Shown one piece after another: positions 22,713 to 62,276 of a stretch of 64,000 bases of DNA (position 1 is its first letter; each line of letters opens with the position of its first letter). The notes below the pieces were generated by a model, which was given only the letters and a program-made list of their open reading frames with translations, had not been told where the DNA came from and searched no databases. Position numbers and translations under genes: made by a program. This stretch comes from Halorubrum aethiopicum (GTDB lineage Archaea > Halobacteriota > Halobacteria > Halobacteriales > Haloferacaceae): NCBI RefSeq assembly GCF_001542905.1, contig NZ_LOAJ01000001.1, forward strand, positions 2,232,001-2,296,000. The letters are read 5' to 3'.

Positions 22713-23057
22713 CTGAGCGATCGCCGGAGCGGTGGCGCGCCCGGGAGCGGGCCGGAGGCTCGCGACCGGCCCGCGAGGGACGCGGCGAGTGTGACGAGGT
22801 ACGAACGAAGTGAGTACCTCGATAAGCGAGCGGCGAAGCCGCGAGCAGGGAGCCGCGAGGCTGGGGAGGCGTGAGGTGCGGTTGCGGAGCGGTTGGTTGG
22901 GACTCAAAGGGGCAGTCGCGAGGGCGAAGGCGGCCGACGTAAGCACCACAGGGAGGGAGTGAAACGAGCGACTGAGGAGCGCAACGAGGCCCCCGAGTCC
23001 TCGCGACTGGGGCTTTGGCGGCGTCCGCCGTGGTCGTGTTCTCCGCGCCAGTAACGG
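22713..23057 (+). repeat. dispersed structured repeat, copy A
   Basis: The copy has six blocks in order. (1) GAGCGGTGGCGCGC at 22727. (2) CCCGCGAGGGACGCGGCGAG. (3) A variable hairpin, CGAGGTAC (22795-22802) pairing with GTACCTCG (22814-22821). (4) The fixed hairpin GCGGC-GAA-GCCGC, then CTGGGGAGGCGTGAGG. (5) GGGACTCAAAGGGGC, where CAAAG (22905-22909) plus AGTCGCGAG pairs with CTCGCGACT plus CTTTG (23013-23017). (6) Closing GTGTTCTCCGCGCCAG. Between the arms of block 5 is an apical region of about 80 bases. The copy lies in sense orientation downstream of the aldehyde dehydrogenase gene, inside the gene-free interval 22592-23261. The rest of that interval (23058-23261) shows no gene. ORFs on its minus strand are artefacts of the repeat. 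Confidence 0.8.
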
Positions 23058-47413: not shown

Positions 47414-47956
47414 ATGGCACGCGTCCCATACGTCGAGGCGGCGGACGTCCCGGACGAACACGAGGCGTTGCTGGAGTCGGCGCTCCAGGGGAAGCCGCTC
47501 AACGTCTACCGCTCGATCGGCAACAACCCGGCGGTGCTCGCGGGGATGCGGTCGTTCCTGCGCTCGCTGTGGAACGACAGCGGGCTCACGGATAGAGAAC
47601 GGGAGCTCGTCATCCTCGCGACGGCGGCGACGATCGACAGCCGCTACGAGTGGCACCAGCACGTCAACATCGCGCGCGACGTCGGCATCGACGACGCGGT
47701 CATCGCCGGGATCGGAACCGGCGACCCGACCGCGCTCGACCGCGACGAGCGGACCCTCGTGGCGTACGTCCGGGCCGTCGTCGAGGAGTCCGTCGACGCG
47801 GTCACCCACGAGTCGATCGCGGCGCTGTACGACGACGACGAGATCGTCGGGATCGCCGCAACCGCAGGAGGGTACGCCGCGCTCGGGGCGCTCATCCGCG
47901 CGTTCGACCTCGAGTTGGAGTCGGGGACGACGTTCCACGGCTGGGACCCGCGGTGA
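47414..47956 (+). CDS. carboxymuconolactone decarboxylase / AhpD-like protein
   Basis: The protein is 180 residues. The core RERELVILATAATIDSRYEWHQHVNIARDVG matches the CMD/AhpD helical fold, with the His pair but without the CxxC of the peroxidase AhpD. A decarboxylase-like or unknown role is therefore more likely than peroxide reduction. The stop codon lies in the first bases of repeat copy B, so the mRNA 3' end would carry the whole repeat. Confidence 0.75.
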   Translation: MARVPYVEAADVPDEHEALLESALQGKPLNVYRSIGNNPAVLAGMRSFLRSLWNDSGLTDRERELVILATAATIDSRYEWHQHVNIARDVGIDDAVIAGIGTGDPTALDRDERTLVAYVRAVVEESVDAVTHESIAALYDDDEIVGIAATAGGYAALGALIRAFDLELESGTTFHGWDPR

Positions 47957-48194
47957 GCGATGGCGGTGGCGCGCCGGTGAGCGCCCGGAGGGCGCGAACC
48001 GCCCGCGAGGGACGCGGCGAGCGAGGTGCGAGTGAAACGAGCACCTCGGTGGCGAGCGGCGAAGCCGCGAGCCGTGAGCCGCGAGGCTGGGGAGGCGTGA
48101 GGTGTGGGGCTGTGCGGGGCGGGCGGGACTCAAAGGGGCGGCCGCGAGTCCTCGCGGCTGGGGCTTTGGCGGTGTTCACCGCGCCAGCAACGAC
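47955..48194 (+). repeat. dispersed structured repeat, copy B (compact form)
   Basis: Same block order as copy A. Opening GGTGGCGCGC (about 47965), then CGCGAGGGACGCGGCGAG. The variable hairpin is CGAGGTGC (48022-48029) with GCACCTCG (48041-48048) and an 11-base loop. The fixed hairpin GCGGC-GAA-GCCGC follows, then CTGGGGAGGCGTGAGG and GGGACTCAAAGGGGC. The last hairpin is closed at once: CAAAG...GCCGCGAG-TC-CTCGCGGC...CTTTG (48131-48168), with no apical region. The end is GTGTTCACCGCGCCAG. It lies directly downstream of the CMD gene in sense orientation and fills most of the gene-free interval 47957-48349. The rest contains only a TATA-like AAATATAG about 100 bases before the next gene. Confidence 0.82.
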
Positions 48195-48349
48195 ACTGTT
48201 CTCATCAACTCGCTCTCCATCGAAGTATCCGTACCATTAGCACACGAAATATAGCGGCCGATTCGGAGGGAGACCGGTCTAAAAAGCGAACCCGCGAAGG
48301 AGACGATCCGGACCGACAGATACGACAGGGTTCGGAGCCAACGTCGGGT

Positions 48350-61937: not shown

Positions 61938-62276
61938 GAGCGGTGGCGCGCCTCCGAGCGCCCGAGAGGGCGCGAGGAGCCCGCGAGGGAGTCGACCGTC
62001 CGGAGCGAAGCGGAGGACGGTCGGCGAGGTTGGGGAGGCGTGAGGTGCGGTCGCAGTGCTGTGGGGGGACTCAAAGGGGCAGTCGTGAGGACGACGCCCG
62101 GTGAAGCAAGCACCGCAACGAAGGAGCGATAGCGACTGAGTGAGGAGCACAGCGAACCGCGCGAGTCGGGCGAGGGCGACCGCAGGGAGCCCTCGGGTGG
62201 CGAACGGCGAAGCCGTGAGCCCTCGCGACTGGGGCTTTGATCGTGTGCGCTGCGGTCGTGTTCACTGCGTCGATGA
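61938..62276 (+). repeat. dispersed structured repeat, copy C (rearranged form)
   Basis: It opens with GAGCGGTGGCGCG (61938). The variable hairpin has a different stem, CGACCGTCC (61993-62001) with GGACGGTCG (62015-62023). Then come TTGGGGAGGCGTGAGG and GGACTCAAAGGGGC. The last stem is CAAAG plus AGTCGTGAG (from 62072) with CTCGCGACT plus CTTTG (to 62239). The apical region resembles that of copy A. It also holds a second variable hairpin, CGAGGGC (62171-62177) with GCCCTCG (62189-62195), followed by the fixed hairpin in changed form, ACGGC-GAA-GCCGT. It ends near GTGTTCACTGCG. It lies in sense orientation after the DUF6360-like gene; the interval 61905-62349 holds nothing else. Confidence 0.8.

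Follow-up and report, generated by a model that had tools for sequence, protein, structure and literature searches.

The question raised by this locus is what kind of element is represented by three intergenic copies of a repeat, here called A, B, and C, that lie within a 64,000-nucleotide stretch of the Halorubrum aethiopicum genome (the window). A sequence-only reading had described them as a structured, dispersed repeat for which no named element was known and had listed as candidates a 3′-UTR or noncoding RNA element, a processing or termination signal, and a non-autonomous mobile element. Having examined the whole family with a covariance model (R1), we see about an even chance that it is an old non-autonomous family resembling palindrome-associated transposable elements (PATEs) that is now maintained by gene conversion.

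Size and distribution of the repeat family

The R1 model comprises 133 positions and was built from 24 copies. Its matches, together with inspection of the sequence, confirmed the three copies in the window, their common ordered blocks, and the stems that had been quoted for them (Table 1). The family proved to be far larger than the three copies reported, as R1 found 130 matches at E ≤ 1e-3 in the H. aethiopicum genome, all on the main chromosome (contig C1, 3.05 Mb). The other two contigs (280 kb) contain none, for which the probability by chance is about 1e-5. BLASTN of copy B against the same genome returned 92 pieces. Moreover, of the 97 occurrences of the GACTCAAAGGGG block on the fetched chromosome, with at most one mismatch allowed, 93 are within 700 bp of a family copy.

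Matches to R1 were present in all 52 Halorubrum genomes searched, in 86 of 170 genomes of the taxonomic family of the host, and, class-wide, in 143 of 391 genomes and 40 of 86 haloarchaeal genera, with weaker scores beyond the genus. Named relatives with copies are almost all Halorubrum, in addition to Halobellus captivus and a few haloarchaeal MAGs. This covariance search, which the sequence-only reading had proposed, yielded hundreds of intergenic matches with very strong covariation. On plasmids, matches were detected at five places on four large haloarchaeal plasmids (Halobaculum, Halorussus, and Halorubrum), and the end modules of sister-species copies had no plasmid match. The repeat was found neither in the phages searched nor, by exact pattern search, in IMG/VR viral contigs. 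On secondary replicons of Halobaculum (L324, 1250–1740) and Halorussus (L326, 1440–1830), two copies are arranged inverted and back to back, and the Halorussus pair flanks a short stretch bounded by TATGATTGGTTCAAG / CTTGAGCCAATCATA.

At the gathering score, Rfam 15 recognized only a tRNA in the window, and a typical copy gave no Rfam match at E ≤ 1. As the searched open-access literature likewise provided no match, the description of an unnamed structured repeat was borne out, and the family appears to be undescribed in both sources.

Anatomy of the element and its folded strand

The element is about 300–450 bp in length and protein-free, with a core of 200–450 bp. From the 5′ end, it consists of GCGGTGGCGCGCC, hairpin H1, CGCGAGGGAC, hairpin H2, GAGGCTGGGGAGGCGTGAGGTGCGG..., GGGACTCAAAG, GGG, CAGTCGCGAGG, the apex of hairpin H3, CCTCGCGACTG, GGG, CTTTGG, and the small hairpin GGTGTTCACC at the 3′ end. 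We found an additional long stem, absent from the sequence-only reading, in which CAAAG pairs with CTTTG across an invariant GGG/GGG loop. The copies with this stem were collected by loose CAAAG + CTTTG matching with the sides matched independently, so that the counts are biased to those letters: CAAAG/CTTTG (142), CGAAG/CTTCG (19), GAAAG/CTTTC (2, both in Halobaculum), and GGAAG/CTTCC (1). The loop itself is GGG/GGG in 164 of 184 copies. GA/GA internal loops are present in 98 (H1) and 82 (H2) of the 103 distinct sequences of the H. aethiopicum genome, and the end loops of H1 and H2 are mostly GNA. H3 folds into short helices between purine loops, with 31 consensus pairs, 22 of which show double changes. 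The conserved blocks are also present in Halobaculum and, in part, in Halorussus. In L152 and L099, the apex of H3 reads as the reverse complement of the family sequence, as though it had turned over between its own arms.

On the reported strand, G-U pairs outnumber A-C pairs by 69 to 27, counted over related sequences and not as independent events. This asymmetry, together with the tandem G.A loops and the GNA end loops, indicates that it is the reported strand that folds. Such loops are stable in RNA and single-stranded DNA alike, and the strand asymmetries do not tell these two apart. Folding energy looked promising as a strand discriminator in one copy but gave no separation over 40 copies (z −3.0 versus −2.8). 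The G-U pairs in the final stem, which had been taken to point to RNA, are real in copy C. Neither the motifs nor the folding energy separates RNA from single-stranded DNA.

Although copy B had been proposed to define the core, its H3 is a deletion derivative. The end-stem GGCCGCGAG/CTCGCGGC is what would remain if the usual hairpin insert, with a median length of 78 nt between the 8-nt arms in the H. aethiopicum genome, were deleted between two of its CGCGAG repeats. A similar deletion, again through CGCGAG repeats, has removed the middle of a remnant at C1:778219. The variable stems quoted for the three copies all exist but are not strictly homologous, as the stem in copy C is the closing stem of H2, whereas those in copies A and B form an extra hairpin within H2, whose closing stem there is GCGGC/GCCGC.

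Table 1 Positions in the window of copies A, B, and C and their parts
Copy	Feature	Positions	Strand	E value
A	R1 match	22729–22914		7e-22
A	Core, GCGGTGGCGCG to GGGGCTTTG; H1, long H2 with extra inner hairpins, full-length H3	22729–23017	+	
A	GGTGGCGCG block, H1, CGCGAGGGA block, H2	22731–22856	+	
A	Conserved G-rich block GAGGCTGGGGAGGCGTGAGGTGCGG...	22857–22899	+	
A	GGACTCAAAGGGG ... TGGGGCTTTG, stem H3, GGG/GGG internal loop	22900–23017	+	
B	R1 match	47963–48140		4e-22
B	Core; H3 shortened by internal deletion	47963–48168	+	
B	GGTGGCGCG block, H1, CGCGAGGGA block, H2 with inner CGAGGTGC/GCACCTCG hairpin	47965–48082	+	
B	Conserved G-rich block	48083–48125	+	
B	GGACTCAAAGGGGCGGCCGCGAG-TCCTCGCGGCTGGGGCTTTG, shortened H3	48126–48168	+	
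B	Right-hand extension of own clade; small hairpin GGTGTTCACC, then ...TATCCGTACCATTAGCAC...	48169–48304	+	
C	R1 match	61940–62081		8e-17
C	Core; H2 closing stem GTCGACCGTCC/GGACGGTCGGC, H3 with extra inserted segment	61940–62239	+	
C	GGACTCAAAGGGG ... TGGGGCTTTG, stem H3	62067–62239	+	

The small hairpins GAACGAAGTGAGC (26), GAGTGAAACGAGC (16), and AGCCGGCGGCGRAGCCGCCGGC (13) are confined to family elements on the fetched chromosome. Mini-hairpin modules, including GAACGAAGTGAGC, GAGTGAAACGAGC, AGCCGGCGGCG..., GTCGCAGCCCGCGCAGCG, and GAGGCGC..GCGCCTC, are inserted at hairpin loops and are almost exclusive to the family; examples are the H. aethiopicum C1 copies L035, L022, and L013 and positions 22795–22830 of window copy A.

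Covariation and concerted evolution

Among the 103 distinct H. aethiopicum sequences, 98.4% of cells are paired, compared with 73.1% after shuffling, and 16 of the 17 modelled pairs change on both sides. Pairing collapses to 29–47% in slid controls. Similarly, 97.1% of cells are paired in 113 relatives, and all 17 pairs have changes on both sides. When the same site was compared between species, 87 pair cells differed on both sides with pairing kept, 11 differed on one side, and 13 were broken. Whole stems are swapped at an unchanged insertion point, as in the alignment of the H. aethiopicum copy at C1:167923 with L063 of Hrr. rubrum. A positional ortholog is no closer than a typical paralog from the same genome (median rank 55 of 105). 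In addition, dispersed H. aethiopicum copies have exact internal tracts of 238, 165, and 163 bp in common, and the outer parts have diverged in both of the tract-sharing pairs that were aligned (172553/2384444 and 1012454/561494).

Judged by these comparisons, the copies evolve in concert, and ectopic gene conversion would most simply explain it. With concerted evolution, double changes are not countable as independent compensatory mutations. Because orthologs are no more alike than random paralogs and whole hairpins are swapped, the covariation is largely block exchange. Measured over 218 aligned copies, the covariation noted from the first three is real, but its main source is block replacement.

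Genomic placement

The context statistics cover 115 evaluable copies, leaving out the 15 in chromosome positions 2,456,001–2,856,000, and the genes were called with a simple codon-usage caller, not taken from curated annotation. None of the 115 copies is overlapped by a called gene, and all are intergenic. They are distributed over convergent (47), tandem (51), and divergent (17) gene pairs, with 96, 230, and 167 intergenic regions of at least 200 bp, respectively, serving for comparison. Counted per region, whatever the region length, convergent placement is enriched (odds ratio 4.6, p = 7e-10) and divergent placement is depleted (odds ratio 0.26, p = 3e-7). Between tandem genes, 20 copies are oriented with the genes and 31 against them (p = 0.16), and this unbiased orientation implies that the element does not act as a 3′ signal tied to one strand. 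A position in sense directly 3′ of a gene is thus true of the three window copies but not of the family.

Relative to random placement in matched intergenic regions, neither regular spacing along the chromosome (dispersion p = 0.30, gap variation p = 0.45) nor strand polarity (67 strand runs, 65.6 expected) was found. The stretch of C1 from 1.7 to 2.2 Mb is depleted in copies (8 of 251 intergenic regions versus 105 of 1261), and its first part is low in G+C and contains TnpB genes. Positions 1.70–1.80 Mb, with a G+C content of 0.57, two TnpB genes, and no element copy, are probably a genomic island. At C1 864336–864551, two partial matches lie on one strand with about 120 bp between them; they are probably what is left of a split or tandemly duplicated copy.

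Gain, loss, and ends of the element

The flanks of 43 copies in relatives could be mapped, and the H. aethiopicum genome is occupied at 27 of these sites and unoccupied at 16. Two comparisons, both at one H. aethiopicum site, revealed opposite orientations at an occupied site. The site of copy B is empty in genomes G108 and G115, where about 300 bp are missing between the flanking genes. Insertion without target duplication is a property of PATEs; at the empty sites found here, the flanks have diverged too far for the junctions to be placed to the base.

Among 107 sister-species copies, 47 (44%) have a TTATAAA-like box at most 28 nt from the 5′ end, and 46 of 90 (51%) have one 25–75 nt past GGGGCTTTG, with a background of 0.8% per 28 nt. 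The boxes at both ends have the same orientation. About 25 nt separate the 5′ TTATAA box from H1, and about 35 nt separate the 3′ box from a GGTGTTC-CC hairpin. In 32 of these 90 copies, the 3′ module recurs downstream. At L065, the module GACTGGGGCTTTGGAGGAGTTTACCG... forms at least four tandem repeats 3′ of the element. TTATAA boxes are few in the H. aethiopicum genome and are missing from most copies of its clade, and no promoter-like box was found upstream of the H. aethiopicum copies. This clade has other extensions instead, and 37 copies have both left and right ends. Terminal inverted repeats that were apparent by eye failed a shuffle test on these 37 copies, as the end complementarity was 14.3 versus 12.3 ± 2.3 for shuffled ends, with 16% of the copies above the 95% line.

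Transposases and known elements

No Y1 transposase was found in the H. aethiopicum genome or in ten other Halorubrum genomes with copies, amounting to 11 of the 52 genomes of the genus. Over all contigs, the H. aethiopicum genome carries four TnpB genes without Y1, which are orphan TnpB genes. No copy is adjoined by TnpB, and the element has no convincing similarity to the flanks of the TnpB genes on C1 and C2. An IS605/REP origin found no support, as the Y1 and TnpB searches revealed no resident mobiliser and no similar ends.

PATEs are transposase-free elements of a few hundred base pairs with near-terminal palindromes, known from Haloquadratum walsbyi (PMC3119063) and Halorubrum virus HRTV-DL1 (PMC10544981). 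They number about 180–190 copies per Haloquadratum genome, extend beyond the palindromes by a heterogeneous 20–50 bp ending in a conserved terminal oligonucleotide, and have no inverted terminal repeats (PMC3119063). In Haloquadratum, SMR-A repeats target PATEs, and "SwitchRepeats" occupy one site in opposite orientations (PMC3119063). Likewise, the present family is protein-free and too short for a transposase (no gene called in 115 copies), has palindromes near both ends in sister species, lacks inverted terminal repeats in the shuffle test of 37 copies, and occurs in opposite orientations at one site. The small repeats inserted into its palindromes, that is, the nested hairpin modules inside the elements, resemble SMR-A in PATEs. 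However, whereas the end palindromes of PATEs are similar to those of IS605-type transposons, the present ends do not convincingly resemble the sequences beside the TnpB genes of C1 and C2; the family has one large covarying internal structure conserved across taxonomic families, it is almost absent from plasmids and phages, and gene conversion appears to maintain it in a genome that has no Y1 transposase.

Other systems share fewer of these properties. The REP/BIME and REPIN elements of bacteria (RAYT Y1 transposase) are also numerous intergenic hairpin repeats, mainly chromosomal and enriched away from promoters, but the family is far longer and more complex, with no resident Y1 in the H. 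aethiopicum genome or the ten others of the genus. Haloarchaeal MITEs and SMRs are short noncoding mobile repeats as well, whereas the family is without clear terminal inverted repeats. The omega RNAs of IS200/IS605 elements (sense overlapping RNAs of IS1341-type genes) are structured haloarchaeal RNAs 3′ of a transposon, but the family copies have neither a neighboring TnpB gene nor convincing similarity to TnpB flanks. Hairpins with GA/GA loops were seen by eye 3′ of a TnpB gene in the H. aethiopicum genome. In alignment, the family behaves like the covarying structured RNAs of Rfam, although it matches none of them.

Alternative explanations

The convergent enrichment and the sense position of copies A, B, and C after genes would suit a 3′-UTR, RNA-processing, or transcription-termination element of the preceding gene. 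However, promoter avoidance gives convergent enrichment too, 17 copies lie between divergent genes, and the orientation in tandem pairs largely refutes such a signal, which we regard as very unlikely. The restriction to the main chromosome is consistent with chromosome-organising sites that would signal spacing or polarity during replication, segregation, or condensation, but spacing and strand order do not differ from random placement, and this explanation is hardly credible. A MITE of an ordinary inverted-repeat insertion sequence agrees with the size of the element, its presence or absence between species, and the clade-specific extended form with both ends, while the ends are barely more complementary than shuffled ones and the sister-species boxes are direct, not inverted; we consider this origin improbable.

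The strongest competing explanation is a family of trans-acting RNAs, given that the blocks are retained across taxonomic families. The copies of such a multicopy structured noncoding RNA would be small transcription units with the TTATAA box as promoter in sister species and a start predicted near H1, the unpaired blocks would bind a common trans partner, and gene conversion would act as in rRNA genes. The strong strand-specific structure, with its G-U excess and its GA/GA and GNA loops, the double-changed pairs of the H3 fold, the blocks conserved as far as Halobaculum and partly Halorussus, and the TATA-like box at a fixed distance in sister-species copies argue for this explanation. On the other hand, the H. 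aethiopicum copies have no promoter-like box, the box is also present at the 3′ end and is thus more plausible as an end marker than as a promoter, the H3 apex is inverted in two relatives, and large inserts and deletions are tolerated, which leaves the explanation possible but doubtful. A rather tentative prediction is a new and very abundant class of haloarchaeal structured RNA, with some 100 or more interchangeable chromosomal copies kept in concert by gene conversion and a common trans partner. The parts of this putative class would be short helices, tandem G.A loops, GNA end loops, and the invariant GGG/GGG internal loop.

A proposed PATE-like mode of life

Among the candidates of the sequence-only reading, the non-autonomous mobile element is the best supported, and the anatomy and dynamics of the family fit PATE-like elements best. 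The restriction of all 130 copies to the main chromosome, the lack of gene overlap, the presence or absence between species, the opposite orientations, and the deletion remnant argue for a PATE-like element, as do the TTATAAA-like boxes at both ends in sister species, the lack of terminal inverted repeats, the nested modules, and the concerted evolution. Against it stand the lack of Y1 and of TnpB-flank similarity, the boxes missing from most copies of the H. aethiopicum clade, and a conservation of blocks across taxonomic families that exceeds the needs of a dead repeat. Because convincing TnpB-flank similarity and Y1 are both lacking, the latter in the H. aethiopicum genome and ten others of the genus, we describe the family as working in the manner of a PATE and do not class it as one.

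A PATE-like family would have dispersed by transposing as single-stranded DNA, with its transposase provided in trans, and its insertions would be tolerated only between genes, best far from promoters. In the H. aethiopicum genome, which has no Y1, copies would be mainly inherited in place, and some would be lost or shortened via deletion between short direct repeats. Ectopic gene conversion would continually homogenise the copies, swapping whole hairpins, while selection or copying may keep the folding of one strand intact, as either single-stranded DNA or RNA.

With about 130 copies on one chromosome, the family is found throughout the much-studied genus Halorubrum and in 40 of 86 haloarchaeal genera, yet it is apparently undescribed. 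It provides a clean natural example of textbook covariation made largely by whole-hairpin exchange among paralogs and calls for caution wherever RNA discovery in repeats is based on covariation. If transcribed, it would be among the most abundant structured RNA families of archaea; if not, it would extend PATE-like elements to a chromosome-restricted form kept by gene conversion.
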